Below are positions 37,945 through 64,000 of a stretch of DNA of 64,000 nt, piece after piece (position 1 is the stretch's first letter; each line of letters opens with the position of its first letter). The notes below the pieces were generated by a model. It was not told the origin of the DNA. It was given only the letters and a program-made list of their open reading frames with translations, and ran no database searches. Position numbers and translations under genes: made by a program. This DNA is from Cryoendolithus antarcticus. Taxonomy: Eukaryota > Ascomycota > Dothideomycetes > Cladosporiales > Cladosporiaceae. Location: contig NAJO01000057.1 in the NCBI GenBank assembly GCA_002077065.1, forward strand, positions 62,001 to 126,000. The letters are read 5' to 3'.

Positions 37945-39158
37945 AACGACCTGATAACCTGAATCCGTCGGAGTCACTGACAAGACTGTACCTGATTAGG
38001 GACGAATGCCAGTAGACTTTCCGGGCTAATCCAGTAGAGATAGTTCAAGGCAGATACTCAATCACAAGATCTGTCAGTGTTCACTAGCCGTCGGGAGCAG
38101 AGTATCGTCCACGTCCAGCGGGCACAATGAAACAGCTACGGCAGTAGTAGATATGGAATCCAAAAGGTCCAGACGCTGAAGGTCCTACGGGCGCATTCGA
38201 TGCTGACAGCGTCACGGCGAACGAGTCCTCTCCTGGCGGTTACAAACAATGTCCTGATCCTGGCGGACAACCGACAATACAATCACTCCTAGGGTAGAAA
38301 GGTTGCGGTCCAGGTCGAGACCAGATGCAAGGCGTGGAGTGAGGTTATGTTGAAGGTGATGGAGGGGTGGGAAACAAGGCGGCAACACTGAGGTGAAAAG
38401 CGGCTGGAGAAAGTGGGGCCGAGCGCGTGTCATGTCAAGTCGGGCATCGATGCAGCTATGTTGCTCCTTAGTTGCTACGTCTAGAACCCCATTACTGTAC
38501 TGCGATGCCAGTGCTCCTTGGTGTGCATCGAAGGGTGTAGACCACTAAGACCTAGACTCTAGTCATACTCTAATTACATGTAAAGAGCTCGATGAGCGAT
38601 TGCCCTAGGGTTTATTTCGATGTGTTTGGTCGCAGCATCTGGTCTGCTGGGTAAAATCACTAGAAGTGAAACCACCACCTCCACCAGCCGACCATTCAGC
38701 AAGCGAACCAGCTTGCTCGCTGCCTCATCATCACGACACAAGTGACAGGGGACAGGCACTTCGGCGCTCTGGCATCACCAGTCAGTGCGTCGCCTCAGAG
38801 CCACGCAGTACTGAACGCATACACAGCACATTTCTGGCACTTCACAGTCGACCACGACATCCTACAGCTTGCATCTCAACATCGACAGCATGTTTTCGGC
38901 TTCATGCACCGGGGCGTAAAGCGATAGTGCTCGCGCCGAGTGCTCGTGGACGCTGCCCATTCGCGGCTCGTCACGCCGGTGAACCATTGGCTACATCGAC
39001 ATTGCATTGCAGTCCACTTGAGCGCCGCGAGTCGGTGCACGGCATCGAAACCTAAATCAACACGGGGAGCGTTCTTTTCCACTGGCTGAGATAATAGATC
39101 ACTAGGTCTCACTGGCTCTGTGCTGGCGCACCTGCTAGGCGCAAGGACTGGATTGCTA
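37945..39158. other. Intergenic region, no gene seen
   Basis: 1.2 kb upstream of the RfeG-like gene, extending to the stop of the GST-like gene. Only short frames without family content. Confidence 0.45.
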
Positions 39159-45103: not shown

Positions 45104-48046
45104 TTAGAACCAATGAACCTCCTCATTACCCCTGGTGACAAGCTTACCCAGCACATCCAAAGCTCCATTCGTCAATCCGCAAGTATTCGGAGGTACATCC
45201 AACTCCTCGATTTTCCCTTTCGTCCAAAGCAACACACTCTTCGCCAGCTGCCATGTGATGTTGGCCGCAGGTCCATTGCTGATAAAATTCGTGATGGCCT
45301 GCTCCAGCTCCTGCGCCGATGCACGAGGTTCCGTCGGGCTCGGGATGCTAAGCCTGAGCCTTCGGCTTGACTCGTCACCAACATACGCGCGGGCCCAGAT
45401 CACGACTGAAGCGAGGTAAATGGCCCATTCCTGAAACAGCAAACCAGTCTTGGGATTCGCTTGGTGTATCCGCAGGATCTCCAGGGCGTGAGTGAGAGCT
45501 GAGCTGACGGGACTAGACTCGTGCGATGCGTCCATGGCCCATTGCCTTGTGTCAATCTGCGAGGCTGTGTATTCCGCTTGACTACCCATCTTCTCCGCCA
45601 TGACCCAGCTTTCGCCAGCGACTGCGAGTAGATCGCGAACGTGCGCATGTTGACAAAGCATGGTAGTGTGGTACAGCAACGCCGCTCGTGCGGAAAACTC
45701 CAGCACCGACTTTACGTCTTGCGCATAGTCCTCTTGCGCAGCGCTGTCGAATCCCTGATCCCCGAGGTCGCTCAAATATGCAATCGAAATGCGGCACTGG
45801 TACATGTCGCGCCCTATGGAGTTGCCCGGACGCGAGCTCGCAGTGCTGTCCACGATGTGATGCAGCGTGCTGCCCGAAAGCCCGGCGAGGCCGCCTCCGA
45901 CTTCAGCGCCCATCATGTCCCACACGAGGTGAGGCTGGGGGTATGCGAGAGATCTCGACACTTGGTCGAGTAGGGGGTTCTTCCTTCGTCCGAAAAAGAC
46001 TGCGTGCTGGCGATCAAGGATGTAGCAGGAAGAGAGAATTCGCGGTCTGGATCCTACGTCACCAGCATCGAAGGGTTGCGCCGATGAACCTAATAGGCTA
46101 TTACCTGATGCCTGCGTGGCGAGATGATCCGCCACGAGCAGTGCGACGACGCCTTCGAAGGGCCTCGACAGCTGCAGCGGTGGTCTTCTGGACTTGAAGA
46201 CGGCGAAGACCTCGACCAGGAGTATAGCCTGCATGTCACAGTCACGATAGCTATGAGAGACTTCGATAGTCCGTTGCTTGATGACTTTGCTGCAACGCTC
46301 GTGGACAGTCTTGGCGTTCTGGAAGTCCTCCCGAAGTCCTATCGATTGCGCGCCTAGAGCTACGACAGCCGCGCGCAGTAAAGGAGAAGATGTCATCGGA
46401 TCGAAGCTGGCCTTACACACAACAGGCCATATGGGATGCACATTCTGCCAGTATGCGCCTAGGTATCTCTCCTCGTTGCCCCAGGATCCGAGGTTCGTGT
46501 CGGTTCCTTCGAAACCAAACGTAGCACTCGAGGGCGTTGCTAATCGCGGAGCTTCCATGTTGTCGCGAAGAACCGGATCGAAAAGAGATTGATGAACCAG
46601 CTGTGGGTATAGCGACAGTTCGTTGCAACCGTTGTGCAGATTGCTGTACGATAAGCTGGAGGAAGGAGTGCTGTATCCGAATGCAGGACTCTGGGCGCCT
46701 AGACCCCAATACTGGAGCCCACTGGCATTCGTTGAGATTGAGGACCTGGACGCACTGAAATTATGGTTACTTGATGGGTGGTACTCGGTGAAACCTGGCT
46801 GTACCGGTGGCATGCATGGCAGGTGGCTGTAGGAGTTCGCGCGTCCATCGTCAGAAGAGTCCTGTGGTGATGGCTGTGCCGTGTAATCGTATTGTGAGTG
46901 CGCCTCGGTGATGCTGACAGACCGGGCCTGTGCACGAAAGTCGTGCATGGGGATGTTTTGTTTACGAGGCGGCCTGAAGGATCGGGTCAGCCAGCGCTTA
47001 CGACCACACCAATTACGCTCTGTACGCGAATGCCACTATTGATGTCGCGAGACGGCGCTAAGGCTCTCGAAATTTCTCAAACATGATTGACTTGTGACTT
47101 ACTTGTTGCCTGTTACGGGCTGTTCACGAGGGGGTTGCGGCGCACCAGAGATGAGCTCGATCGAAGCCGGTGACCGCGAAGCAGACGATCCTGATAAATT
47201 GGATGGCATAGTACCATGGTGCGGATGTGAGGGCAAGGGCACGATTGCTTCTCCAGGTTGTGGTGAGTCCGCAACAGCCAAGGATGAATGCCGGCTCCGA
47301 AGGGCAGGTGATTCATCACTACATGGTCAGCCTTGGTGCCACTTTCTCCATAGGCCGTTCGCATAGACTCACTGGCGTGCTCGGTGTCGTGTAAGCAGAT
47401 CGTCCCTATGGAAGGCTCGTGTGCAGTCTGGGTAGTCACATCTGAATGCGCCCGGCTTGTGATTCGTGCTGTGTCGTCTGTGAACAGTCGTCAGTACAGT
47501 TTAAGGGCTGCACAGACGCCTCGATGCGTACCGTAGATGCTCTGCGCGCGTGTATGTCTATTCATAAGTCAGCTATACGATCGTGCTGTTGTTGCCAGAG
47601 TGAAGGCGCAACAAAAAGTTCGAAGACAGGGCTTGCTGACCCTTAGACAGCATGACCTGGTCGCAAGGTACGGCGGCTTGCTGTGATAAGTGCAGTTTGC
47701 GGTATGTCGGACCCCTTCCTGCTAGCATCGGAGTGGAGGACACAGCGGATACAATCACTTCACGTACCTTGCCACACTCCTCACAGTGATGCACTCGCTG
47801 GCCTTTAATGGCCTTGCTGATGCGTCCAGTCTTGGTGCGTCTGACACCGTCGATAGCCTCAGGTGGTGTCGTTGATCGTTCCATGGCTGCCGAAATAGGC
47901 GACAAGTCGGATCGTTGGCGCAACCCAGACGGTCCACCTTCGAGCGGTTGGGCAGGCCCAGAAGTGCTAGTGATCCGACGCTTTTTGGGGTCTCGGGGCC
48001 GTTCTTCTGGTGCAATGGCCAGGGTTGGGTTGTGTCCCGATGCCAT
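45104..48046 (-). CDS. C2H2 zinc-finger transcription factor with fungal-specific TF domain
   Basis: Five exons: 47768-48046, 47532-47557 (26 nt), 47373-47477, 47103-47294 and 45104-46973; introns 210, 54, 78 and 129 nt; 823 residues, all phases consistent. Two C2H2 fingers are assembled only after splicing: HHCEECGK plus TYTRAEHLRRHSTNH, then FRCDYPDCTRAFHRDDLL TRHRAR. A basic stretch (RDPKKRR) precedes them. The long last exon contains the fungal-specific transcription factor domain, with YWQNVHPIWPVVCKASFDP and the central SRPRILSSCYILDRQHAVFFGRR. Such C2H2-plus-PF04082 factors regulate metabolism or development in ascomycetes; the target is unknown. The 26-nt exon encodes the helix that links finger 1, so mis-splicing would destroy the finger. 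Confidence 0.87.
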
Positions 48047-49938
48047 TACTAGGACTTATATCGAAGTGAGCGAAGAGGTACACCGGCCTCCTTTCAACAT
48101 GCGAGCCCTATGTGGGTCAGGTCCAACTACTGCCACCAACATGAGTGTTCAAGGATAGCATGACAAAGGTAGCATGTGAACATCCATCAAATTAGCTTTG
48201 CGCTTGCCATAATGTGTTTGTGAGGAGATCAATAGCACACAACCACGATTTGAAAGACGAGGTAGCTCTAGAGCGTAGCATCACGGAGAAGGATTCGACA
48301 GCATCGCATGCACCTATCCCTGAGCAGCTGGCATGCCTGCAGGCCATGCTGCAGAAGCACTCTCGCCCGTTCAAAATAGGGTCACTCAACTCCCCAGGTG
48401 TCGATCATTCAAGCATCGCAATCCCGGGACCAGGCAGGCTTGTGTGAAAGTTCGACGCCCATGCGCCACAAACGGTACCGTTCGCGAAGTAGCGGCTCTT
48501 GGAATCGAAACCAGCGCACTGTGGACGCCTCGCGTACCCGCCGATGCGGTCCTAACGGCCTGCCACCGGTGAAGGATTCGGCGGCTAGGGCGAACACAGT
48601 ACCGACCTAAGCTTCGCGTTCGCAGGCTTGGCGATTGAACAACAGGCTGTTATCTGTGCTGGCTGTTTGAGACGATAGACGCAGCAAGCGAGCTTCTACA
48701 GACGACGGCAATACTTGCGTGCATCCGGTTATGATTGCTGATGCGTTTGAAGCGGCGATCTTGACATCTCGAGTCCCGACTCGAGCAGAGCTCCATCTCG
48801 ACAGACACCTATATCGAAAGCTATTGCAGCGACGCAGTCATCGACCCAGCCTGACTGGTATGGTTTTCTGTCGATGTGCACAAACTCTGATGTGCCAGTT
48901 CAGCTTTCGACTGGATGTGCGCAGCAGCAATCTCGATTGCTATTGCGCACGTACGAAGGTCGCAATCTTCTCCCTTGTCAGACGGACCAACATCAGCTGC
49001 TCGGGTCGGTTTCACATTCTGTGGAGGCCCAATCTACGCACGTGGACATCCCGCCGTTGGGGATGCTGACATAATGCAAGGACCTGGACAAGGCTGGTCA
49101 TGTTATCGTAAAGTCAGCCAGCTTTCTACATGCGCATGGAATCCAGCAGCTGCAGGACTCCCTTCACGTCACCAGAATTTGTAGTCGTACTTTGTCGATC
49201 GGACCCGTAATAATGTCGGTGTGCGTCAAGTGCTTGTGCACGCATGCACTATGTGCGGCTGAATGATTATGGTTTACGTGTCCCTCTTTCCTCATCTGGA
49301 TCGCGGACCTTAGCGAGTGTTAGTGCCTGTGAGCATCGACATCGATTGGCTGCTTCGTTGGCTGGCTTGCATGCAGCCAGGAACTCCTCACCTCACCAAA
49401 GGCACTCCGGCCTGGCTAGATCAGCCTCGAAGACGGCGATCATCGGCATACTTGATCGAGCACACGGAAGTGTGACACTGACTCGGTCGAGTAGAGACTT
49501 GACGTTCACCTGTGTGTAGAATGTGCTGACTTGTCGAGATTCGGGACCTCTCCAAAGGACGCAAAGTCGGAACATCGTGTTGAGTGATCGTCTGTGAGTG
49601 CTGATACAGTAAGAGAGCTCGCTACTGGTGCTGCCGCACACACGTAGTTCGGTCATCTTCAGTGCCACACCCAACGTACAAAGAACAGCTTCTACTGCTT
49701 AGCCGTCGATTCATGTTGTGTTGGTTTGGTTACACTTGAGGAGCGAGTGCGCGAGTCAGGACAGAATAACATCCCTCCTGCCGGACTCCGACCGGCCTCC
49801 CGAACCTTAGTGAAGTGGGACAACGATGCTCCATCAGGTCTCAAATGCGCGATATATCGTTCCCAAACAACGGTACACGCGCATTTGTAACGAAGCAAGC
49901 TGCTTCAATGCAGAATTCGTCGAGAGACTCGCCACACT
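48047..49938. other. Intergenic region, no confident gene
   Basis: 1.9 kb between divergent start codons. A 64-residue minus-strand frame at 48821-49015 (EDCDLRTCAIAIEIAAAHIQ) has a helix-like composition but no exon partner and no family. Otherwise nothing. Confidence 0.4.
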
Positions 49939-51348
49939 ATGGTCCGCGTGCTGTGCCTGGAGGACGAAGACCCGTCAGATGCAGAAGCTAAACCATCGAT
50001 TGACGGCTTCGCCACCAATGGTGAAGCTGGTCAAGAGAATCCAAATCTCAACAGAGTCACAGCGGCACTAGGCTGCTATCCGTAAGTACTTTCTCCGAGC
50101 TTTCCTGTCTTGTCTGCCCAAGCAAATTGAACAAACAAAAAGGAGTGGAGTTCCACACTGAAAGGCAGTGATATGCTATCGAAGCACTAGCCATGAACGT
50201 AGGCTTCGTCTGACGTACAGATCACAGCATTATTTCGCAACTGGCACGTTCCCTAGACTTGAACTCCCTCCATGAGCTATCTCGGACATGTCGACAAGTC
50301 AGGGCGAACCTCTTACAATACCGGCAAATGCTTATTGCTCAGAGCCTACGGTGTGACAACGAAGAAGTCAGCGTCGGTACTCGACTTGGCTGTGCTCTGA
50401 CTGCTGGTTTGGAGCAATGGACTGTCCACGGCCGCGATGCCAAGCCATCGGACAGGCTCACAAGTGGCAAAGTTGGCACATGCGCGCGTGATCTTGTCGG
50501 CGATTGCAGACGATGCGGCAAAATCATCTGTCGCGTGAGCCACACTGTGTCTATGAGCTGCTCGAAATACTAAGACTCTCGCAGAACTGCACCGTTAAAT
50601 CGCCCTCCACTGCTGCACTCAAGGGTCGGCATCGAAGGCTTTGTAGAACATGCATGAAGGCGTCGACTAGCAAGCTCGTCAGCACGCGATCGTGTCAGGC
50701 ACTTGGGGAGTCGTAAGTACGTTTGATGAACCGCTCGATCTCTCGCTTACATTCGGCAGCATTGATGACAGCGATGTCGAGCCGACCACCCTGCGTGATC
50801 CATGCACTTGCACATGCTCTGTGTGGCTCTGTCAGCCTTGTGGTCTAAGCATGCGGACGTTCGACACTACATACACCCGCGGCTGGGCCTGGCGCACTCG
50901 CTATTCTGCCTGTGGTGGCATTGGCGCAGGAATCGGCGAGGGCGTAGAGGGCGTTGAGTGCGGACGTGGAAGGGACTGCCTCGCCGCTCACGAGCTCTAT
51001 AAAGAGCTTGAGTGTGACGCCGATGAACTTGCAGCAATCGAGGCCGAGATGTCCCAGGCAGAGCTTGACGGGCGCTCGTGGCTAGGAAGCAGCTACACAA
51101 CGCAGGAGATTGTGGGCATCGGTGGACGCGTGAAGAAGAAAGTCAAGAAAAGGTTTATGGTCGGAGATGCGGTGAAAGAGTACGAGGACGAGAGAGGTAG
51201 CAGCACTTACCTGCAGCGAGAGCAGAATGGTGCGAACCGCAGTTGGTGCTCGTGGTGTGAGAGGGTGGTATTAGGGAAGAAGGATCTCGAGAGGCCGGCT
51301 ATGAGCTCGGAGAGCATTACATCGAGCTCGTCAGGAGGATCTGTGTGA
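49939..51348 (+). CDS. F-box-like protein with cysteine-rich, probably zinc-binding, C-terminal half
   Basis: Four exons (49939-50081, 50228-50534, 50585-50712, 50760-51348) with introns of 146, 50 and 47 nt give 388 residues; phases fit. Near 47-75 the sequence IISQLARSLDLNSLHELSRTCRQ resembles an F-box (L..L.. D ..L..LS..CR). Then come TCARDLVGDCRRCGKIICR, NCTVK across the splice, and RRLCRTCMKA, a treble-clef-like Cys array. After it lies PCTCTCSVWLCQPCGLSM and a GGIGAGIGEGVEGVECGRG segment, ending SWCSWCERVVL. I recall this architecture as widespread in ascomycetes but cannot attach a name. An F-box would suggest an SCF ubiquitin ligase adaptor; that is inference. Confidence 0.75.
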
Positions 51349-51515
51349 AGTCGCATGAAGCTACAGATGAGCAGATGCATTATGACTAGCAATGTGCACA
51401 AAGCCGGGACAGAGGTTGTCAAATGAAGCGAACATATGCTGGCAACGAGCAAATCCTCCAGTCCGATCTCTTCGCAATGACACCCAGTCTGATACAACCA
51501 CAAGATCACGATTGC

Positions 51516-54237
51516 CTAGAACTTGAATCTCATCAGTCCCGGATTCAAAGCAATCGGCAATGCTACGTGAGAGACAACGAGAGTCCCCAACGGCCAGATA
51601 GCCGTGAACTGTCGGATCCTCCAGAGAGGTGGCACGAAGAAGGCCAGCACGATCATACCTGCGGTAATGATGAAGCAGATCGCCAGCGTCCACTTGAAAC
51701 CCTTCAAGATCCTCTTGAACTCCTCGCCAAAGGTCGTATCCTCAATTTCTTTCTGCGTAGCGCCCCAGGACATATCCTTGCCGACGAGATGCGAGACTAG
51801 TGCCTGCGAGACATGGATCGAGATGCCGCCAAGGAAGATGGTCATCATCGGGATCCAGCTGATGTTCTCCCACAAACTGGCTAAGAAGCCCATCTCATTG
51901 ATGCGGTAGCGGAGGTACGCGAGAGCCAAGTTGCCGCATCCCGTGAAAACGATGACGATGGCGAAGTATAACTTGAAGCTGTCGACATAGTAGTGATCGA
52001 GAAAGCCGTTGAACCAGCCGACGAGGAAGTAATTGGCCAGCGTGAGCCAGAATGAGCAGCCGATAGCGTAGTAGGTGCCGATGTAGGCGAGGATGTTAAA
52101 CTTAGCGGGTAGCGGCATGCAGGAGAAGAGGAAGGTGCGAAAGAGCTTTGTGACAAGACCACGCTTGTACCAGTGTCGAATGGGATGGAAGAGGAGCTCA
52201 CTGCAGCCGAAAGCATACTTTTCCCAACGGGCAAGCTCATCTTGAACTGTGAGCGAGACGCCTTCTTTGAAGCCGCCGTCGAAGTAGGCTCCAAGACGGA
52301 CGATGTACCCAATGGACTGCAGGCGGAGAGCCATGTCGAAGTCTTCTGAGACAGTCTCTTCGGACCAGATCTTCTCGTGGTTATCGAGTTTACAGTGATA
52401 AGCGATTTGCTGCTGCGCGCTCCAGCGAATGACGGCGTTGTGGCCGACGAATGGTGCGACGTCGCCATTTGAGACGGCGTAACGGATTTGGGTGTAGACC
52501 ATGTCCGTGAAGAAGGTGATGCCTCGCTCGAAAAAGCTGTCGGAGACTTGCATGACGCCTGATGCATACTGGATAATCGCCACTTCTGGGCATTGCTCCA
52601 TCTCAGAAACAGCATCGAGGAAGCAGTCCGTCGGCACACGGGTGTCGGAGTCAATAATCAGGATGTAGTCGCCGATGCGAATATTGCCGTCAGCCCAAGT
52701 ACGTCCTTGGTCTTCTTCGACGACCTCTGCTAAGGCATTGCGGTACACAAAGTCCTCGTCGTCCTTCGCCCAGCCATCGTGTCTCTCGACGTTGGCCAGC
52801 TTGTCTTCGACACGTGAACTGACCCACAGGCAGTAGTTCATGTTGGATGCCTTCTTGAACTTGCCGCGGCGTATGTAACTTGATCCGTCATCGAGCGCTT
52901 GCTTGTGGGCGGGCCGAGCAACCCAGCCGATGTTATGCTCTTCGTAGAAGTCTTGCTTCACTTGAGCGTCGGTGTCAGAGTCTAGCTGCATTCCGTCTTC
53001 GTTTACGAAGATGTTGGCAGACCCACCTTGCATCTCATACGTCGAGATAGCAGCTTTGAGTGAGCGGATGGTTGGTGCGATGACGTTCGCAATGCCCTCT
53101 CTGTATACGGGCATCTGTATGGTGATGTGCGGTAGGCTGCCTGGCTCACGACGTATCCGCGGCGACCGAACGCCTGAGTAGAACTTGCTGTTCTGCAGCA
53201 TCTGCTTGATAGGCGCTACAACCTGGAAGAAATCGCCGACGAGGCACTGAAAGAAGAATATGGCCAGCCAGAACTGCGGTGCGAACAACGCCACGAAGAC
53301 GAGTCGGATCCAGTTATTGTCCACAATCGATTGGAAGACTAATTGCTTCCACCCGGTCCCGATGGATGCCACGCACAAGCAAAGAGAAAGCGCGCAGGTC
53401 ATTGGTGTGATTAGCATGAATCTTCGCGGCTTCTGCTTGACAGCAGTTTCGTCGTCCTCGAATACTCTCTTCTCCTTGACGTGCGGTTCCTTCGGAATCT
53501 GATCCTCATCAGAGTGGATTGATTGGGCATCCCAGATCATGTCCATGAGTTGCTTCTCCATGTCTTGGGCACGCGTGAGCAGATGACGAGGGTTGTCGTC
53601 CCAAACAACCAAGATGCGACGATCGGAGATGAACGCGGCAGATGTGTGCTTCAGACATTGTGGCAGATGGGCCATCTCTTCCAGCACTTGCACGCTGAGT
53701 CCACCCTTGAGCGGTACGAACGGGGTCTTTAGATGTTCTAGGAAAAGCTGGATGACTCGTGTGTTGATAGTGACGGCAGACTTGGGAAGATGTCAGTAAG
53801 TAGTAAGCAATGCAAAATATGAAGCCCTGACCTACCTTGACATTGAGCAACTCGACAGCTCGGAGGAATCCGTCGGGGTTCTCAGCAAGCCCGAGGGGAC
53901 AGCATGCATACGAGCCTCTGCCTTTCTTGACAACCACGCCTTCATCGTACCCGTTCTGGACCCACGTCTTCTCCACTTGTTGCTGGTGGAGGTAGTTGAC
54001 AGTGACTTGACACTTCAGATCGGCCATATCTGTCTGTTCTGCATTTGTCGGCGAGGATGGTCGACTGGTCCATGGAGACCCAAAGCCTGGACTGTCAGGT
54101 GGCAAGCCAAACAAGCTCCTATGAGGCGACGCTGCATTCTCCACGACCTTCTCAGGAAGCACGTCAGGCTCCGCATGCTCCTCTGCAGCGGCCTTCTGAT
54201 CATCGACCGCAGGCTTGAAGTAGCTTTTGAGGCCCAT
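51516..54237 (-). CDS. Family 2 glycosyltransferase, GT2 type needed for hyphal growth in other fungi
   Basis: Exons 53836-54237 and 51516-53780 (55-nt intron, phase 0) give 888 residues. A disordered N-terminus of about 100 residues precedes a folded domain, two membrane helices (MLITPMTCALSLCLCVAS and RLVFVALFAPQFWLAIFFF), and the catalytic domain. It has IQMPVYREG for nucleotide-sugar binding, the DxD motif in LIIDSDTRVP, a GITFFTDMVYTQIRYA segment, the acceptor-side EDFDMALRLQ, and RWEKYAFGCSEL in place of the QxxRW box. About five C-terminal membrane helices follow. GT2 of this kind in Zymoseptoria and Fusarium is required for growth on solid surfaces and pathogenicity; the polymer made is not settled. 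It is convergent with the F-box-like gene. Confidence 0.92.
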
Positions 54238-55662
54238 GCTGTTTGAGGCTCAAAGATTGCCGCTGCGTGCGAAGGGCTTCGCGTAATTCGTGAAGAATGT
54301 GTGGCGACTGCTCACAGGGACAACAGTGAGGTATGCGGTCCCACAAAGGTCGCTGGATGCATCCCAGAGCTCGTATGCAGAAGAGACTATAGAACTCGCG
54401 TATTGTAAGGCGCACGACGGTAAGGACTGGAAGATCTAAACAATGTGCAGCGGTGACGGCACTCTGGTGCGGTCCTTGACACGTTCGAGAAAGCAGCTAT
54501 ATTCGTTGAGAAGGCATCGCACTAGGGATGCCTTACCGACACCGCGAAAGGAGAAGTGAATCATGATAGCGTTCTTGGTGTACAAACTTACCACTTTCTT
54601 GGCTTGGGAGGGCACCAGTGTCGAACCCTGTAACGGTCAACTTTGCCACAAGCGAGAGACGATTTAGGCAGTTCCAAAGGCCTGCGACAGTGATCGCTAT
54701 GTTGTTGTTGCCACAGTGACCCTCCATGACAGGTGCCGAAGGTGTCGTAAGAGATCCTCGTGATGCGTCCTACAAGCTCTGACGACCTGGGTAGGCATCG
54801 CCAGCATTCGACTTCGACAAGTGACTGTGTGCAGACCACACCGACACGTAATCGGCGCCTACACTGATGCCGTGCTGCGAATTTCTTGCCCGAGGGCGTG
54901 GTGAGACCTGCGTAGCTGCAAGTGGCAGCGATGTCTTGCAAGAGCCCAATCCGGCAATCTCGCGTCATAAAGGCGGAACCGCACGGGCGGTGGCATTGAA
55001 AACGCTCGCGAGTTTGGCGCTGCCAGTAGTATGGGTACGGTGACCTTTGCGAGACACTTCGTGGAACCCTCGACCTGATGCTGCCATGTGGAAGAGCTGT
55101 TTGCGGAAACTTCGGCGGCCCGAGACCGCGAGTCTGTCTTGCCGTCTCACAATGTATACGCTATGTGCAGGGACTCACATCTGCAGATATCGCTTTTGCG
55201 ATGCATAGCCAGCCTCCACTACGATTAGATCGATGCGAGTTGCCCCCGCGTACGCTGACCGTTTGCAAGGCTCTTGCGCCAGTAGGAGCCCCAAACGCAG
55301 CCCACAACTTCCTCATTAGTCATTTCCGCTCCCGAATCGCCAGCCTTACTCTGATAGAGATCGCGGATATGTAGAATGCAGCCCTGCAGCCTCGTTCGTG
55401 TTCCAGTCAGGTGTGCCCACATCGCGCGGGCCCTTGAGCCAAAGCCGCGGGCTTTCGTACAACCTGGGAAGCTGTCTCATCGCCGAATATGTCCCGACTT
55501 GCGTGTGGCCTATCGATGCGCGCACTCATAGACCACGCTCGCCTTTATTCCTCCAGTCAATTGCTGCCAGAAACTTCTTGCCCATCCGTGCTACAGTGGT
55601 ACTGCAAGACTATGTCGTTGCTCTCGATCTTGCTTTTGAAGTTCAGTTATCATTGTCGTGCA
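54238..55662. other. Intergenic region, no gene seen
   Basis: 1.4 kb with no recognisable frame. A GGTTCGACACTGG on the minus strand near 54610 looks like part of a tRNA B box but has no A box partner or stem, so it is not called. Confidence 0.5.
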
Positions 55663-56452
55663 TCACTCAGCAAGTCGGTACGACACCATTGTATCGATCT
55701 TGTGACTGTTCGTCGAGAAGCTCCTGAGCTGAACCTTCTCGGCGTTCTTCACTTCCTTCGCGTCGCTGTCGCCCCACTCAAGCGGGACATCGCTGTCTGC
55801 ATCCGCGTACACCAGGACATTAAATGTACAGTTGCCATCGAGCATGGGTAAGAAGGTGACCGAAGCAGTGACTTGGCGGAAAAGTGATTGGATCTCGGCT
55901 TGGATCTCCTGCTCTGTCTTATCCGACGCAGGATCAGACTCTGCGCGTGCGCCAGCGTTCTCCTTGTCTTCACGAGCGGCTTCGGTGCGTTTCCTGCTGC
56001 TGTCGTTGAAGACGTTGACCTGAGCGCTGTCAGTCGAGCTCGACCTGTGCTAGCTGCACTTCACGAGATACACACATCAAATTGCCACCGCTCGATATGC
56101 TCCCCGGTCTCCTTACTAGTGACGACAATGACGAGTTTCGAGATCTTCGACTTCTGCATCCACTTGCTGAGTTGGCCCATGATCTTCTTGATGTAGGCTT
56201 TGACTTGGTCATCGAGCGAGACCATCATGTTCAGCCCATACTTCTTGACACTTTGAGCCCGTCAGCACTTTTCATCGAGTTCGTTATCTACGTGACTTAC
56301 GGAGCGAAGTCCTCAGGAGGGTACACTCCTCGTTGAAACAGTATGGTGTTCGCTGCGAACTCGAAGAACTCCACGCACAGCTTCGAGGAGCCTTTGATGG
56401 ACAGCTTGTGCACTTTCGATTTATCCGCAGGCGGCGGAGCAGCAGGAAGCAT
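55663..56452 (-). CDS. MAD2: Spindle assembly checkpoint protein MAD2 (HORMA domain)
   Basis: Inhibits APC/C-Cdc20 when kinetochores are unattached. Exons 56301-56452, 56076-56250 and 55663-56019 (50- and 56-nt introns) give 227 residues. The HORMA core is clear: SKLCVEFFEFAANTILFQRG, then YPPEDFAPVKKYGLNMMVS, then YIKKIMGQLSKWMQKSKI, then ISKLVIVVTSKETGEHIERW. The C-terminal safety-belt region reads FNVLVYADADSDVPLEW and ends VQLRSFSTNSHKIDTMVSYR. A charged insert of about 30 residues (SRKRTEAAREDKENAGARAE) lies in the middle, typical of filamentous fungi and absent from yeast. Start ATG fits MLPAAPPPADKSK. Divergent from GUF1. Confidence 0.97.
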
Positions 56453-56656
56453 GATGAGCAGTGTCAGTCTCACAGTAGAGTAGTCTTGCCAATGATGATC
56501 GTACGCAATGGTTGTCGCCGGTCGTTCAAGAAAGTTTGACCGCGTTGATGAGGCAACTCGATGTCTTGGCAATATGACTATCACATTGGTGATCTTGGTC
56601 CGAACGACGACAGACTCAGCTATTAGCATGCATTGAGCGCGAAGGCGATCAGCTCC
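56453..56656. promoter_or_regulatory. Short divergent promoter, MAD2 / GUF1
   Basis: Only 204 bp separate the two start codons, so transcription of both genes must start here. No motif is assigned. Confidence 0.5.
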
Positions 56657-58612
56657 ATGCGACGATGTCTCCTATTCTCGGCACGTAATGCACTCTCACT
56701 GTCGCGGTCCAGCTCGCGGCATAGTCTACAATATGGCTTCCACACCACTGCCCGACGTCTCGCAAAGCGAGTCCCTTCGGAGGTCGAAAAGCGCATCGCA
56801 GATATCCCGATAGAGCGCTTTCGCAACTTCTGCATCGTCGCGCATGTCGACCATGGGAAGAGCACACTCAGCGATCGGCTGCTGGAGTTGACGGGGACGA
56901 TCGAGAAGGGCGGCAACAAGCAGATCCTCGATAGGTTGGATGTCGAACGAGAGCGCGGCATCACTGTCAAGGCGCAGACATGCTCTATGATCTACAACTA
57001 CAAGGGCGAGGACTATCTGCTGCATTTGGTCGACACGCCGGGACATGTCGACTTCCGTGCTGAAGTGAGCAGAAGTTATGCCAGTTGTGGTGGCGCCCTG
57101 CTGCTGGTAGATGCGTCGCAAGGCGTGCAGGCACAGACTGTGGCGAACTTCTACCTGGCATTCGCGCAGAACTTGGAGCTCATTCCGGTGTTGAACAAGA
57201 TCGACTTGCCTTCTGCGGATAAGGAGAGGACGTTAACTCAGCTTAGAGACACCTTCGAAATCGATCCGACTAATTCTATCTGCTTGTCCGCGAAGACTGG
57301 ATTGAATGTTGAGCAGCTATTGCCGACGATCGTCGAGCAAGTGCCGGCTCCGACTACGAGCGACGGAGCACCTCTAAAGCTGCTTTTGGTGGACAGCTGG
57401 TACGACAATTACAAGGGTGTCATCTTACTCGTCCGCATTTTCGATGGCTCAGTTCGAGCGGGCGATAGACTCATCTCGCTTGCCACTCAGAATGAATACA
57501 TCGTGGGAGAAGTCGGCATCCAGTACCCTCTCGAGACTCCGCAGACTGTGCTGCGAGCCGGCCAAGTAGGCTACATGTACTTCAATCCAGGCATGAAGCG
57601 AAGCAAAGACGCCAAGATCGGCGACACTTACACTACCGTAGGCAACGCAAAGAAAGTCCAGATGTTCCCCGGCTTCGAAGAGCCGCAATCAATGGTCTTC
57701 GTCGCCGCCTTCCCCACAGACCAAGGCGACTACACCCACCTCGAAGACAGCATCAATCAAGTCACACTCAACGATCGCTCAGTCCTAGTCATGAAGGAGT
57801 CCTCAGAAGCTCTTGGCGCCGGCTGGCGTCTCGGCTTCCTAGGCACACTCCACTGCTCCGTCTTCGAAGACCGTCTCCGACAAGAGCATGGCGCAAGCAT
57901 AATCATCACCCCGCCCTCCGTGCCCTTCAAGATCATCCGCCGCGACGGGACAGAGGAAATCATCCGCAACCCAAACGATTTCCCCGAGACTTCCTTCATT
58001 CATCAGCATATCGCTGACGTTCAGGAACCCATCATAACCGCCACAATCGCCCTCCCCGAAGAATATCTAGGCAAAGTGATTGAGCTCTGCGAAGCCAACC
58101 GCGGCATCCAAGAATCCCTCACCTTCTTCACCGCCACGCAGGTCATCTTAAAGTACGAAGTCCCCCTAGAGCGGCTAGTGGACGATTTCTTCGGCAAACT
58201 CAAATCCGCTACGAAAGGCTACGCCTCGCTCGACTACGAAGACGCTGGATACCGCTCTTCCAACATCACGAAGCTGCAGCTTCATGTTAACAAAGTCTCT
58301 GTCGATGCGGTTGCGCGCGTGATCCACGCCTCTCAAGCCGAGTTCATGGGCAAGCAGTGGGTGAAGAAGTTCAAAGAGCACGTCGATCGGCAGATGTTTG
58401 AAGTTGTCATTCAAGCCGTGGCGGGCAAGAAGGTCGTGGCTAGGGAGACTATCAAGCCGTTCAGGAAGGATGTGCTGCAGAAGCTGCATGCGGCTGATAT
58501 TTCGAGGCGGCGGAAGTTGTTGGAGAAGCAGAAGGAGGGGAGGAAGAAGCTGAGGGCTGTGGGAAATGTCACGATAGAGAGCTCCGCGTTTCAGAAGTTC
58601 TTGGCGAAGTGA
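56657..58612 (+). CDS. GUF1: Mitochondrial translation factor GUF1 (EF4/LepA GTPase)
   Basis: Ribosome-associated GTPase of mitochondria that back-translocates or remodels stalled ribosomes. Single exon, 651 residues. The first about 40 residues are basic and Ser-rich without acids ([18 protein letters not shown]), a mitochondrial presequence. G motifs: [16 protein letters not shown] (G1), RGITVKAQT (G2), [15 protein letters not shown] (G3), [12 protein letters not shown] (G4). The EF4-specific C-terminal domain is present: [20 protein letters not shown], then [20 protein letters not shown], then [21 protein letters not shown] and [19 protein letters not shown] in the usual order with slight spelling changes. 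Start at 56657 matches the first Met of the presequence. It is convergent with the PRELI-domain gene. Confidence 0.97.
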
Positions 58613-58798
58613 AGGGAGAGAATTCACAGCGGAGAGGTCTTCCTTGCAGGCTTAGGGCCTCGATCACTATTGTACACTAGTCTCACATACCTAAACACCG
58701 CAATCGATCGTACCGTACTCTCACATGCATTCCCTGCTAATCCGACAAAATCTCAGACGCCAGCACTGAACCACTGCGTTCCCCTCGCGATGCAATTT

Positions 58799-59575
58799 TC
58801 AGACGGGATGAAACTCTCGATCCAGTCTCATCCCTTCAAGTACCCCGACTAGTCCGCCTTTCCGCAGTCTCTCGAGTACTACCATCATCCCCTGCTGTGC
58901 TTTCGGCTGACTTCGCTCCGTTCTCTGGAGACTGATCTTCTCGATTGCAGTCCTGATGGCTCCAGAGCTCCAAGCAGTGAACCATCCCTTTCTCGGCGCA
59001 GGCTCCTCGTCGCCGCTGGATCCGGAACTTGACACCGCCCCGACCATCTCACTCGCTTGCTCGCCCCATCGTGCTCTTCGTTTTCGCAACTGCTCCCCGA
59101 TGTGCGATTTGAGCGTCACGCTCACGGACACCATCGTCTTCTCATCCTTGGCAGCTAGGCTCGCTGCCTCCTCAGCGCTTGCTCCAGCCATAGTGTTGGC
59201 TGGCCGCTCATACCTCCCTTGTTCAACCACACTCAACACGCCCCTCCAGTCCAGATTCCTCGACTCCGCTTCCATCCAGCCCTCCCTCACATCCACGCAC
59301 GTAGTCTCCAGTACGAAGCTCTGCGTGCTGCCATCGTCCGCCGCGCCGACCGCACCCTTGCCCAGTAACCGCACAACTGCCGATGGTAGTCGTGACTTCT
59401 TCACGTGGAGCCGGGTAGTGAAGAGCCGTTGCGTTGAGGGGTCGAATCGGCGCGAGATGGTGTCCGTAGAGGTTACATGCAGGGAGTAGGGGTTTGGGTA
59501 GCGGAGGAAGTAGGCTAGGGTTACGGCGGGGAGGGAGTAGGGGTAAGAGTGCGTAGAGGTGTAGACTTGGACCAT
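58799..59575 (-). CDS. PRELI/MSF1-domain protein, probable UPS-type phospholipid transfer protein
   Basis: Single exon, 258 residues. The N-terminal PRELI signature is clear: YSLPAVTLAYFLRYPNPYS, then VTSTDTISRRFDPSTQRLFTTR with the strand RLHVKKSRLPSAV. The middle TCVDVREGWMEAESRNLDW matches the lipid-cavity strand region of Ups proteins. In yeast these bind Mdm35 in the intermembrane space and move phosphatidic acid or phosphatidylserine between mitochondrial membranes. It has an extended tail (from about 160) with a Ser/Gly-rich loop and basic helices, longer than Ups1-3. Which of Ups1, Ups2 or Ups3 it corresponds to cannot be told. Divergent from the DUF1365 gene by 185 bp. Confidence 0.86.
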   Translation of the reverse strand: MVQVYTSTHSYPYSLPAVTLAYFLRYPNPYSLHVTSTDTISRRFDPSTQRLFTTRLHVKKSRLPSAVVRLLGKGAVGAADDGSTQSFVLETTCVDVREGWMEAESRNLDWRGVLSVVEQGRYERPANTMAGASAEEAASLAAKDEKTMVSVSVTLKSHIGEQLRKRRARWGEQASEMVGAVSSSGSSGDEEPAPRKGWFTAWSSGAIRTAIEKISLQRTERSQPKAQQGMMVVLERLRKGGLVGVLEGMRLDREFHPV

Positions 59576-59760
59576 CGTCTTTGTCGAGGAGGGGTGGCGG
59601 GTTATTGGTAGGTCATGCGGCGGGGGTGGAGGTCGTGTGCGTTGCGGTGGTGGCTTTGTACTTCGATCGAGTCCGAAATCGATGCTTGGGATGTTTAGTT
59701 AATGAACGAAAAGGTAGAACCGATTATGCTATGCAATGAGACAAGCCTCGAAATGCCTCG

Positions 59761-62061
59761 ATGGAAGGATTAAGATGTAGATGCTCGAGATCGAAGTCAC
59801 GCGGGCTTGCTGCCGTCGTGCAACGTCTCTATGCATTATGTAAGCCGGACCTCCCATATGGAGCCATGACGATTTATGTTGTAGCAACACCTTTCGATCG
59901 ACATGGCGGACCTGTAACATCGTTTCTTTTGATTCTTGTGGTCTTCAGCACCGTCAGTCCTCTGATGCGTGCGTCCAACGATGGCACGACAGCCTTCCAG
60001 TCCGGCGATGTGCCTTACCGGACATTAACAATACTCGCCTGGGCGTTCCTGACCATCATATGGGCAGTCTTTACGCCACCGGAGAGGACCTTCGCAATCC
60101 GAATTCTACTGTTCCAGCCACTTTGGGTTCTCAGGATCCTAGGTCGAGACAGCTCATGCACCGACGACCTCCTGCTCACACTTGTGTTGCATGCAGTCTA
60201 CTCGTTCTGGACTGGCGCTTGGGCGTGGCCAAGTGCAAGTTGGTTCACGTCCGTCCATTACCAAGATGAGGAGGTCCAGATCTACTTCGCCATATTCGCT
60301 CTATTGACTCTCTGTGGCACATTCGCCAGTATCATCGTCTACCGAGACCACCGCGTACAGCGCAGGAGAAGTCGAGCTCAACGTTTTCATACCGATCATC
60401 GAATCGATGAGGAATTACTGCCTCCGCTCTTGATTCCAAGCAAGACGACGCACACGAGATTGTTCCCGAAGAAGCATAGCTTTGAGTACTCGTACCTCCT
60501 TGTTGGTGTGCCAGTCGGCTCATCTGGTAGACTGTCAAATGCATTGTCAGTCGATGGCTCGCCACCAGCTTGGTTCGATGTCCGATCTGCAGATTACCTC
60601 AATCGCGGAGATGATCATCTCGGTCTCGCGGACAAGCTGAAGAGCTATTTACACACTCAGGGAGTGACTGACCGGGACTATTCCTTCGCATACCTCGTGA
60701 CAGCACCGCGGTTCTTGGGTTACAGCTTCAATCCAGTTTCTTTCTGGTACCTGTACACTTCGGACGCTCAGCTGAAGTACATGATACTGGAAGTGAACAA
60801 CACTTTCGATGAGAGACGGCTGTATTTACTTCGCGCGGGTGACGCGGATGACCAAAATGCTGAAGTAGTCAAGTCCGGACCAAGAGCTGGCAAGGTCATG
60901 ACTTTCACAAATACCTGGGAAAAAGACTTTCATGTCTCCCCGTTCAACAGTCGTAAGGGCACTTACTCCCTCCGCGCCATCGATCCGCTTCATGCCCTCC
61001 AAACTACATCGGAGCCTGCTTTCGACAACACCATCGTCCTTCGATCGTCCAAAGCTGAAACCAAACTCATTGCACGCATCTTCTTAGATTCGCCTTCAAA
61101 GATGGCTTCCGATATCGCCACCACGGAGCTCCTTCGTTTCATTGCCAGATGGTGGTGGGTTGGCCTTGTGACATTTCCACGTATCGTCATACAAGCAGCA
61201 AAGCTCTTCTTCACCCACTCTCTCCACGTCTGGTACCGTCCGGAGGTCATGGCGACTAGCTTTGGTCGGGCTTATACGGCCGATGAGCGCAAGCTGGAGT
61301 CTTTCTTCCGAGACTTCCTGTCAGACTGCGTTTCCTCGACTTCAAAGGCCCTGCGACTGGTCTACGTACCTCCCCACGCCGATGGCGCGGATGCAGACGT
61401 CGTCTTCTACAGTCCAGGATTTACGTACGAGGAGGCGCACGTGCGTACACTGACAATTAGGGTCTTGTCGCCAGCTTTCTATGGTCGCTTCGTGCACTAC
61501 GCGCACGCCAAAGAAGCGTTTGACAGGGAGTCTCTGGCTACAGACGAGAAGAACCGGACGATGGTGGTCGAGTCCGCGCATCTACTCCCCGTGCTTCTCG
61601 AAGCAATGACCAAACAATCGTCAGCTCGCCGACCGGTGTCTACTCCCATCGATGCAATTCGCTGGCGCATACTACAGCACCTACGCTGCCCGCCACCTCT
61701 GGTGGCTTACCCGGCATCCTCCCCAGCGTCACTCATGATGACCACAGACATCCGCAGTCTACCCGTGTCAGAGCTAGATCTGTTTGTCCGCACCGATGGC
61801 GAAGATGCCAGCTTTTACCGACGCACATGTACCAAAATCTTCCTGGCGCAACGATTTGCATATGGGACGCCTGTATTGATCTCAGCCATGGACCTTGCGG
61901 TGCGGAGTCTGATCATCTTACTGGCCATCAATATGGCAAGCCACACTACTGTATTCGACGTGTTGCGACCACGTCCGCATACAGCAGAGGACTGGATGGG
62001 TGCGACGACTTTGCTCACAGCCGCAAATGGCGTACATCTTTGGAGGGCGTTGAAAGGGTGA
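59761..62061 (+). CDS. DUF1365 protein with N-terminal membrane domain
   Basis: Single exon of up to 766 residues from ATG 59761; a second Met at 59866 directly before the first membrane helix is a reasonable start too. About five hydrophobic segments cover residues 35-200 (SFLLILVVFSTVSPLMRAS, LTILAWAFLTIIWAVF, IYFAIFALLTLCGTFASII). The DUF1365 domain follows with HSFEYSYLLVGVPVG, TAPRFLGYSFNPVSFWYLY, then EVNNTFDERRLYLL and WEKDFHVSPFN. Two further helices occur near 460-490 and 715-730. DUF1365 proteins are found in bacteria and fungi next to lipid-modifying enzymes in some cases; no reaction is established. It is adjacent to the repeat-peptide gene, in convergent orientation. Confidence 0.86.
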   Translation: MEGLRCRCSRSKSRGLAAVVQRLYALCKPDLPYGAMTIYVVATPFDRHGGPVTSFLLILVVFSTVSPLMRASNDGTTAFQSGDVPYRTLTILAWAFLTIIWAVFTPPERTFAIRILLFQPLWVLRILGRDSSCTDDLLLTLVLHAVYSFWTGAWAWPSASWFTSVHYQDEEVQIYFAIFALLTLCGTFASIIVYRDHRVQRRRSRAQRFHTDHRIDEELLPPLLIPSKTTHTRLFPKKHSFEYSYLLVGVPVGSSGRLSNALSVDGSPPAWFDVRSADYLNRGDDHLGLADKLKSYLHTQGVTDRDYSFAYLVTAPRFLGYSFNPVSFWYLYTSDAQLKYMILEVNNTFDERRLYLLRAGDADDQNAEVVKSGPRAGKVMTFTNTWEKDFHVSPFNSRKGTYSLRAIDPLHALQTTSEPAFDNTIVLRSSKAETKLIARIFLDSPSKMASDIATTELLRFIARWWWVGLVTFPRIVIQAAKLFFTHSLHVWYRPEVMATSFGRAYTADERKLESFFRDFLSDCVSSTSKALRLVYVPPHADGADADVVFYSPGFTYEEAHVRTLTIRVLSPAFYGRFVHYAHAKEAFDRESLATDEKNRTMVVESAHLLPVLLEAMTKQSSARRPVSTPIDAIRWRILQHLRCPPPLVAYPASSPASLMMTTDIRSLPVSELDLFVRTDGEDASFYRRTCTKIFLAQRFAYGTPVLISAMDLAVRSLIILLAINMASHTTVFDVLRPRPHTAEDWMGATTLLTAANGVHLWRALKG

Positions 62062-62270
62062 TGAGGTGATGTGTAATGACTTGGATTTGGTGCTGTATAT
62101 AATGACTGATAAACATACACAAAAGCCATTTCCTCATCTGCAGCGCCCGTAGCTCATCGCTCAATACGCGTTGGGCCGTCGAAATGTGGTCATACCTTAC
62201 TTCGCTTGCCGTATAAACTTGATCAAATTCATGGACCCCCTGCACTGCAGCAGTGACTCCGCCAGACATT

Positions 62271-63385
62271 TCAGCTTTCTGCCTTCCTCCCCTTTTGTTT
62301 CGGCGGATCATAGCTAAATCTCGGTAGCGGTACAAACAACGGCGTACTCGGTTGCTCTATGTGCGCCGTCGTACCGTGTCTCTGCACCACAGTCGGGGTG
62401 GGTTGGACGCTGGGTGCGGGAGTACGGGTTGAGAAGCGGCGGCGAAGATATCTCCATTGCCACCAGCAGTTCTCGCCGATGCGAGGTGCGGCGTGGTTAT
62501 TCCTCGCGTCAGCATTGCGGGAGAGGAGAGCGGATACCACAGAGCGGCGACGAAGGCAGCCCCACTGCCACCAGCAGTTCTCGCCGATGCGAGGTGGCTC
62601 GTGGTGCCTCTTCGCTTCGGCGTTGCGAGGTGTCATGGTAGAGGTAAGGTAGCGGCGTTTTAGACAGCCCCATTGCCACCAGCAGTCCTCACCATTGCGT
62701 GGAGCGTCGTGGTGTTTCTTTGGTGAGCGAGAGAGAAGATTGAGGGTGCGAAACTTCAGACAGCCCCATTGCCACCAACAATGCTCGCCGATACGAGGGG
62801 CATCGTGCTGCTTCTTCGCATCACGCCGTGCAAGGTCTTGGGACCTGGCATGGACCATGAGAGCCTGGCAGTACAGGGATTTGATGCGGGCCGTCCACCC
62901 TTTCTCGTGAAGGTCCGGACTCGAAGGCATCGAGATCGGGATAGATGAGCCGGTGCACGCATGATCGCTAGAGCCTGTCAGTGAAAGTGGCAATGTCGGA
63001 TGCGAGGGTCGATTGACTTGTAGATCATACACTCCACTTCGTCGCCCATCCTGAGTGATCGAGCTGGTACGACTATCAAGCTCTGCGGCATGCTGAGACA
63101 GTCATCTCTTGCGTTGCCGGAGACAAGAACGCAGTCGCCGTTGAAGTTGGCCTCGTAGCAGATATACACTGGAGGCTGTTGGGAGACCGGATGCCATGTT
63201 GGCGAAAGGTCGGTGCTGGACGGTGAGAGAATCTTGGCATAGTCGGCGGGCCAGAGAGTAATGTTTGTGAAGTCTGGAGGAGGCGCGTATTGGGCAGGTA
63301 GGAGGGAGACTGGTAGTGCGGTGGCCGAGTAAAGCCCGCCTAGGGCAGTAGCAAAGGACAGGGAAGGCTGCCAGAGGAGGTGCAT
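62271..63385 (-). CDS. Secreted precursor with four tandem CWWQWGC peptide repeats (Kex2-processed repeat protein)
   Basis: Exons 63031-63385 and 62271-62974; the 56-nt intron (GTATGA donor, CTGAC branch, CAG acceptor) joins GDEVE-C to SSDHACTG in frame; 352 residues. MHLLWQPSLSFATALGG with a hydrophobic core and ALP cleavage region is a signal peptide. A pro-domain follows with an NIT glycosylation site and spaced cysteines (VYICYEANFNGDC, ARDDCLSMPQ). From residue 175 four repeats occur, Cys pairs at 184/190, 216/222, 252/258 and (288 only): APRIGEHCWWQWGCL, APRNGEDCWWQWGCL, PPRIGENCWWQWGCL, APRIGENCWWQWRYL. Basic clusters flank them (AKK, LKRR, AKRHH, LRRR); RNAEA and RNADA before repeats 3 and 4 recall dipeptidyl-peptidase trimming sites. 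Kex2 release of 15-17-residue peptides is inferred. A mating alpha-pheromone or RiPP core are the candidate roles. Confidence 0.82.
62430..62815 (-). repeat. Four tandem coding repeats of the peptide core
   Basis: The block encoding GE-x-CWWQWGCL recurs at about 62454, 62562, 62670 and 62766 (steps 108, 108 and 96 bp, i.e. 36, 36 and 32 codons). On the plus strand each copy reads CCATTGCCACCAGCAG or a near variant. The core is much better conserved than the spacers, as expected for selection on the core peptide. The copy at 62454 has lost the second Cys. Confidence 0.88.
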
Positions 63386-64000
63386 GGTTCGTAGATACCG
63401 CAAGAATTGCCAGCTCGCCGTTTCTTCGAAGTCGGGGAAATGGGTATGAAGATATCCTTACCAGTCTGCGCTGTCTCTCCTGGCGTGTTGTGTGGTGGTC
63501 CTTGCAAAGGTATGCAGACGAATACCCTTGGGGTACACTTCGCATTACAGAGCGGGTCTGTCACCTCAAACGACCGCAGCTTACCGCGGCCTCGGTCAAG
63601 TGGACTAGGATACCGTGAGGTCTTGTGCGCCATCGATATATAGGTCTAGTATGCTGTCGAGCGCGTTCAACAACGTGTGATCACGACTTTCAACGGATCA
63701 TGCGTCGGAATTTACGGCTGCTGAGACTTGATTGTGAGACTCGAAGCCAGTTGGTGGTAGGACCACGTTAAAGTCCCGGGCGAGTCACATCATCACAGGA
63801 CGGGTGCTGCATTGTGGTGTTTGGACATGATCAGCACGTCACTGTTGCAGACTGGGGGTCCCATGACGCCCTCAGCATCTTACCGCGCGCGAATAGTGTC
63901 ATTCATGTATGCTGGTAGCTCTCCAAGGCCACGGATGTCGTTCCTCAGCAGTCCACGAGGATGGTCCAGATTGCATGTCTCGTTCGATCTTGGGCAGCGG
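63386..64000. other. Promoter side of the peptide precursor; right window edge
   Basis: 615 bp upstream of the precursor start. No other gene is seen. The region ends at the window edge, so a divergent neighbour (for example a modifying enzyme) cannot be assessed. Confidence 0.5.

Follow-up and report, generated by a model that had tools for sequence, protein, structure and literature searches.

A Duplicated Orphan Gene of Cryoendolithus antarcticus Encodes a Candidate Kex2-Processed Repeat Protein with a Trp/Cys Core

The window, a stretch of 64,000 nucleotides from contig C103 of the Cryoendolithus antarcticus assembly, carries on its minus strand (62271..63385) the gene B0A48_17242, whose product is annotated as a "hypothetical protein." We consider it rather likely that this product is a secreted precursor of the KEP (Kex2-processed repeat protein) type, cut by Kex2 to give a head and Trp-rich disulfide-loop peptides. 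Judged from its sequence, B0A48_17242 would rank as an orphan KEP whose N-terminal domain is unusual. Precursors built in this way are known from fungi, and a peptide with this core seems to be undescribed. The locus adds a maintained, duplicated orphan repeat-peptide gene and a new Trp/Cys loop sequence from a fungus of Antarctic rock; for KEPs as a class, which are common and very diverse, it changes little.

Results

The Gene Contains a Single 50-nt Intron

Cryoendolithus antarcticus is a Dothideomycete of the Cladosporiaceae, and we take it to be the same fungus as Rachicladosporium antarcticum CCFEE 5527. B0A48_17242 is a real gene. On the minus strand, its ATG begins at 63385 and its TGA ends at 62271, and a single intron separates exon 1 (63018-63385) from exon 2 (62271-62967), in agreement with the spliced one-intron frame proposed in the initial annotation. 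The encoded protein of 354 residues matches the public protein with 100% identity and coverage.

The frame is kept by two alternative introns, of 50 or 56 nt. The initial annotation had chosen the 56-nt intron and thereby a product of 352 residues, whereas the public protein of 354 residues corresponds to the 50-nt model. The 50-nt intron (62968..63017, minus strand, phase 2) reads GTCAAT...CTGACAGGCTCTAG and is defined by the public model and by comparison with a second genomic copy of the gene, in which it reads GTAAAT...CTGACAGGCTATAG, with 10 of the 50 bases differing. The 56-nt intron was rejected: in the second copy it would depend on a GC donor, whereas the 50-nt model starts with GT there. 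In the second copy, the 50-nt model runs GTAAAT...CTGAC-N6-TAG, with CTGAC six bases ahead of the TAG. Furthermore, the 50-nt intron restores ECMIYNDHACTG to the head domain, which in this form shows a Pfam crystallin match below threshold; in the 56-nt version, which lacks this stretch, no such match appears. The 50-nt intron is therefore preferred on the combined grounds of the public model, the GT donor in both copies, the CTGAC before the TAG, and the restored stretch.

Four Copies of an 18-Residue Unit Lie among Basic Sites

At the DNA level, the repeat array consists of four copies of 85 nt with spacings of 108, 108, and 96. When residues 159-354 were shuffled, a 5-mer occurring four times was found in 0 of 5000 shuffles and a 4-mer occurring four times in 1 of 5000. 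Translation of the frame and these shuffles bear out the four repeats with CWWQW, three of them with GCL, that had been described before. The complete unit has 18 residues, [HQD]H[DE][AP]PR[IN]GE[NHD]CWW[QR]WGCL, and a mass of about 2.2 kDa, rather than the 15 residues and 1.7-2 kDa given earlier, and the supposedly invariant CWWQW holds throughout the window but becomes CWWRW in the third repeat of the second copy.

All features of the array lie on the minus strand. Core 1 (QHDAPRIGEHCWWQWGCL, residues 176-193, 62757..62810) is preceded by the basic sites RRDAKK (62811..62828), of which the second copy keeps the KK without the RR, and is followed by LKFR (LKSR in the second copy), neither of which is dibasic. 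Core 2 (HHDAPRNGEDCWWQWGCL, residues 208-225, 62661..62714) stands between KK and KRR, and core 3 (HHEPPRIGENCWWQWGCL, residues 244-261, 62553..62606) between KR and RRR. Core 4 (NNHAAPRIGENCWWQWRYL, residues 279-297, 62445..62501) is degenerate: it has lost the second Cys, its N side offers only NADAR with a single R, and RRR follows it. The earlier claim of dibasic runs flanking every core was thus too strong, as copies 2 and 3 are bracketed and copies 1 and 4 are one-sided. A Pro-rich C-terminal tail (residues 301-354, 62274..62435) is kept in the second copy. Both gene copies share KK174, KK206, KRR226, KR242, and the RRR that follows core 3; RR170 occurs in the window copy only. NAEA stands ahead of core 3 (62607-62624), NADA ahead of core 4 (62502-62516), and DA ahead of core 1; NAEA and NADA resemble STE13 dipeptides but are placed before basic residues, not after them, and are possibly the trace of an alpha-factor-like layout.

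KK is a poor Kex2 site, and in silico cutting depends on whether it is used. Cuts at KR, RR, KK, and RK yield four core-bearing fragments from the window copy and three from the second copy; cuts at KR and RR alone yield three and two. With strict KR/RR cuts, core 3 alone is released as a single unit, in both copies, and cores 1 and 2 of the second copy remain attached to the head. With KK added, cores 2 and 3 are freed with basic tails only, and core 1 remains extended on its C side and core 4 on its N side. Two KEP surveys provide definitions against which these counts can be set. One asks for three or more repeats, each 8 aa or longer, bounded by KR/KK/RK/RR sites (PMC7329392), and the corresponding fragments number four and three, counted outside the survey's repeat-scoring program. 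The other asks for at least three similar fragments after KR/RR cuts, or else KK (PMC6339444); here the fragments number three and two with KR/RR and four and three with all four site types, counted outside the survey's FIMO step.

The genome also contains the Kex2-type P domain (P_proprotein) above the cut-off in two places, in frames of 864 and 845 aa, both of which would presumably be Kex2. Together, the P domains and the presence in both copies of at least three core-bearing fragments of at least 8 aa support the KEP reading of the initial annotation.

Both Gene Copies Are under Purifying Selection

The second copy, B0A48_17968 on contig C127 (L006, 3635-4641), encodes 318 aa with three repeats and is 81% identical to B0A48_17242. 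A lack of conservation of the repeats in relatives had been named beforehand as an outcome that would speak against the repeat-peptide reading; the repeats are conserved in this copy. It lies in a block on C127 that matches C103 109116-139016 in inverted orientation with 76-87% DNA identity, and the duplicated block measures at least 30 kb, since the match reaches the limits of the compared 29.8-kb segment of C127 on both sides. Window positions 47116-64000, continuing to C103:139016, form one arm of this block.

Between the copies, dS is 0.47 and dN 0.09, giving an overall dN/dS of 0.19, and the differences fall on the three codon positions as 32, 26, and 83 (83 of 141 at the third position; chi-square p 9e-10). 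The codon-position pattern and dN/dS indicate that both copies are used as protein, and purifying selection on both argues that the repeats are coding and maintained. Broken down by part, dN/dS amounts to 0.16 for the head domain, 0.07 for the cores of 18 residues, 0.04 for the last ten core residues (E-x-CWWQWGCL), and 0.21 for residues 300-354. These values suggest that constraint may be stronger on the cores than on the remainder of the protein, a difference that is not significant (Fisher p 0.08 and 0.05).

The heads of the two copies differ at five Cys positions (W45C, Y49C, H65C, C76R, and R150C, window copy to second copy). A partial protein from Oleoguttula, which covers the first four of these, has no Cys at 45, 49, or 65 and keeps C76. 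Because it agrees with the window copy in the presence or absence of Cys at all four positions, it is the disulfides of the second copy that seem to have been remodeled.

The Head Is Probably βγ-Crystallin-like

A putative signal peptide (residues 1-23, 63317..63385, minus strand), placed by hydropathy, ends in ATA before the presumed cut. The N-terminal hydrophobic peak (13-residue mean, Kyte-Doolittle) is clear in the second copy (2.05); in the window copy it is weaker (1.34) and is not the highest in that protein.

The Cys-bearing pro-domain of the initial annotation is probably a βγ-crystallin-like domain, as weak, concordant matches to residues 72-156 (62868..63172, minus strand, with the intron inside) suggest. 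Neither whole protein matches any Pfam family, the whole protein finds in the PDB no crystallin and only an irrelevant intersectin 2 (E 0.044), and AlphaFold2 with full-length alignments of two and three sequences gave unusable models (mean pLDDT 32 and 30). It was after these crystallin-free Pfam, PDB, and model results, and before the first crystallin match, that we noted in the head a residue spacing like that of βγ-crystallins. A profile of the two heads then matched spherulin 3a in the PDB (E 0.13), the only other distinct molecule being intersectin 2 over a different stretch (E 0.11), and the domain alone together with the Oleoguttula fragment again gave spherulin 3a as the best match (E 0.079), with aldolase also listed (E 0.84). 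In Pfam, the domain alone matched Crystall (PF00030) with 12.6 bits and E 0.15 in one of three sequences, below the family cut-off of 25 bits, and KH_Vigilin with E 0.3, also in one of three; no family was found in NCBIfam. A single E value near 0.1 means little, because controls gave unrelated matches with similar or better values: the reversed domain, which had no PDB match, matched Pfam NHL (E 0.014 in one of two sequences), and the shuffled domain, which had no Pfam match, a coat protein (E 0.057). The weight of the crystallin assignment lies instead in the agreement of the searches with a prior guess.

Furthermore, hhalign against four crystallin segments, an alignment built after spherulin had emerged as the best match and hence not independent of those searches, gave 72 aligned columns with 28% identity and P 0.0016 for the three-row alignment, compared with P 0.27, 0.62, and 0.75 for the reversed, shuffled, and repeat-region controls. 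With two full rows (P 0.0012), the score of 22.3 was reached by 0 of 300 shuffles, so that by this score the alignment along the domain is better than composition allows. The three-row score of 21.73 was slightly passed by one of 300 shuffles (21.76, the best shuffle), and the domain is therefore probable and not proven. The head thus resembles spherulin 3a and βγ-crystallin domains along almost its whole length but differs from them in its extra cysteines, its sub-threshold scores, and its fusion to a repeat array. A search of the genome with the head domain returned the two known copies only; a six-frame search with PF00030, by which intron-split domains are hard to see, gave no match.

The Relatives Found Are Confined to This Genome and One Fragment

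A whole-protein search of 5.8 billion proteins returned the two genome copies only. The head found one further relative, the partial protein from Oleoguttula sp. CCFEE 5521, which has 95 residues and shows 72% identity across 59% of the query, and the repeat region found none in the same collection; such searches need shared 5-residue words and similar length and can miss distant or oddly sized relatives. The Oleoguttula fragment is no test of the repeats, because it ends before them. Oleoguttula belongs to another order, Mycosphaerellales, yet the matched part is 72% identical; this could mean that the source is in fact closely related and carries a different name, that samples were mixed, or that the sequence was transferred. 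Literature searches returned nothing relevant for CWWQW/WWQWGC (the match concerns birdsong), nothing relevant among the titles listed for crystallin and Kex2, and nothing for a crystallin fold with killer toxin. Within the searches made, the core occurs in this genome only, and the earlier statement that no peptide with it has been described stands.

Discussion

We infer the following course from the sequence. The precursor would enter the secretory pathway, where its N-terminal Cys-bearing βγ-crystallin-like domain would fold first. In the late Golgi, Kex2 would cut the conserved KK/KR/RRR sites between head and repeats and so free the head and, from every molecule, two or more peptides of 18 residues that would read about HHDAPRIGENCWWQWGCL once the basic tail is trimmed off. 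In each peptide, a single disulfide (C-WWQWG-C) would close a Trp-rich loop. The peptides most likely have an extracellular role, directed at competing microbes or at the surface of the fungus itself. The most likely products are thus predicted to be small extracellular, disulfide-looped, Trp-rich peptides and a freed crystallin-like protein; their targets may be other microbes or the cell wall, or they may serve as signals. That the crystallin-like domain and the loop peptides act together outside the cell, as the products of one two-product secreted precursor, is a more doubtful proposal; if true, such a pairing would be new among the fungi of Antarctic rock communities. Should the crystallin-like head be real, the gene would encode a KEP with a recognizable folded domain and a defined small peptide (2.20-2.25 kDa). 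The calculated monoisotopic masses of the disulfide forms are 2206.89 for core 2 and 2244.97 for core 3, each 2.016 higher when reduced.

The likeness to KEPs described in two surveys (PMC6339444, PMC7329392) lies in the putative leader, the three or more near-identical short repeats, the dibasic sites between them, the share of the cores in the protein (about 17-20% here), and the orphan sequence; in the second survey, 2560 of 7878 KEPs stand alone (PMC7329392). The gene differs from them in its probable crystallin-like head and in having two of four cores not fully bracketed, and its core is not among the conserved motifs named in the main text of PMC6339444; the protein itself may be in the supplementary KEP lists. 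Several features count against KEP processing: cores 1 and 2 need KK, core 1 has no C-side site and core 4 no N-side site, and the putative signal peptide in the window copy lacks strong hydrophobicity.

Some room is left for a secreted, largely uncut repeat protein of the wall or matrix, with a crystallin-like head and Trp/Cys loops serving adhesion or cross-linking. Strict KR/RR sites cleanly bracket one core only in both copies and leave cores 1 and 2 of the second copy joined to its head, and one survey speculates on a Rep1-like wall role for the KEPs of osmo- and xerotolerant species (PMC6339444). We nevertheless regard an uncut protein as unlikely, given that KRR, KR, and RRR around cores 2 and 3 are present in both copies and that dibasic borders of repeats are the usual mark of cutting.

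An alpha-type mating pheromone precursor of C. antarcticus would share with the KEP-type precursor a leader and a multi-copy core between basic sites, and the two cysteines and Gly of the core recall the ascomycete alpha-type. One survey describes two-Cys pheromone cores in 13 Dothideomycete species outside the Pleosporales group (PMC6339444). The genome holds two STE2 receptor places, and pattern searches revealed, among the matches listed, no multi-copy canonical pheromone gene elsewhere. The core, however, is C-x5-C with Trp inside (CWWQWGC), unlike the RFCHLPGQGCSK-type cores given there (PMC6339444), and the precursor has a large head. Furthermore, the XA/XP dipeptide that is the STE13 signature does not follow the basic site before any core that has such a site, where the dipeptides are QH, HH, and HH in the window copy and HH, HH, and DH in the second copy. 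With both this signature and the usual core missing, a pheromone role is less likely, and we consider it improbable. As the pattern searches relied on known core types, and one of them on 100 of 337 places, a canonical gene could have escaped them. Inspection by eye of the matches listed showed no clustering of in-frame cores; among the 100 places of that one search, two pairs, on C46 and C60, were spaced by less than 1 kb, and in neither pair did the members share a frame. For another pattern, frames translated at 15 of 18 places included none like a precursor with basic-bordered repeats; those at C30 and C105 have a short doubled GWCMA.VR stretch without dibasic borders. Of the STE2 places, that at C139:420002-420917 falls into two matches, one of which contains an in-frame TGA (an intron or damage), and the other, on C58, matches within one open frame.

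The initial annotation had also likened the gene to dikaritin-type RiPPs (ustiloxin, phomopsin, asperipin), whose cores are cross-linked by UstYa oxidases into cyclic products. The precursor does have the UstA-type layout of a (putative) leader and Kex2-bordered repeats, and UstYa (DUF3328) matches occur in six places of the genome. None of the nine matches, however, lies on C103 (195 kb) or C127 (115 kb), which makes this type unlikely; in those KEPs that have such partners, the distance averages 3.09 genes (PMC7329392). Between window position 39139 and C103 151700, we scanned 20 of the 35 listed ORFs that reach 130 aa or more; the remaining 15 include both exons of B0A48_17242 itself. Of the 20, 15 gave a Pfam family at E ≤0.01. 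On one side these are a DUF1365 protein, PRELI, a LepA type, a glycosyltransferase, a transcription factor, PhyH, and an OTU protein; on the other, an ankyrin protein, a catalase, DUF7726, a CID protein, a clathrin light chain, an ABC transporter, COQ7, and Plus-3. They look like housekeeping or unrelated genes, the expected enzymes are not among them, and no tyrosinase or UstYa was found in any of the 20. The gene thus appears to be solitary, an argument against a dikaritin cluster. Moreover, cores 1-3 have no Tyr, the residue that is cross-linked in ustiloxins, phomopsins, and asperipin-2a in the same survey's account (PMC7329392). Together, these observations leave the dikaritin reading unsupported and, in our estimate, highly improbable.

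Equally remote is a decaying gene with relic repeats, which the degenerate core 4 and the Cys lost or gained at five head positions of the second copy might suggest, since both copies have intact frames, with a dN/dS of 0.19 at a dS of 0.47.

The matches to UstYa, STE2, and the Kex2-type domain occur in even numbers and on different contigs. Together with the duplicated block and the 18,781 predicted genes in 47.4 Mb given for Rachicladosporium antarcticum (PMC5502844), these even numbers would fit a whole-genome duplication or a hybrid genome.
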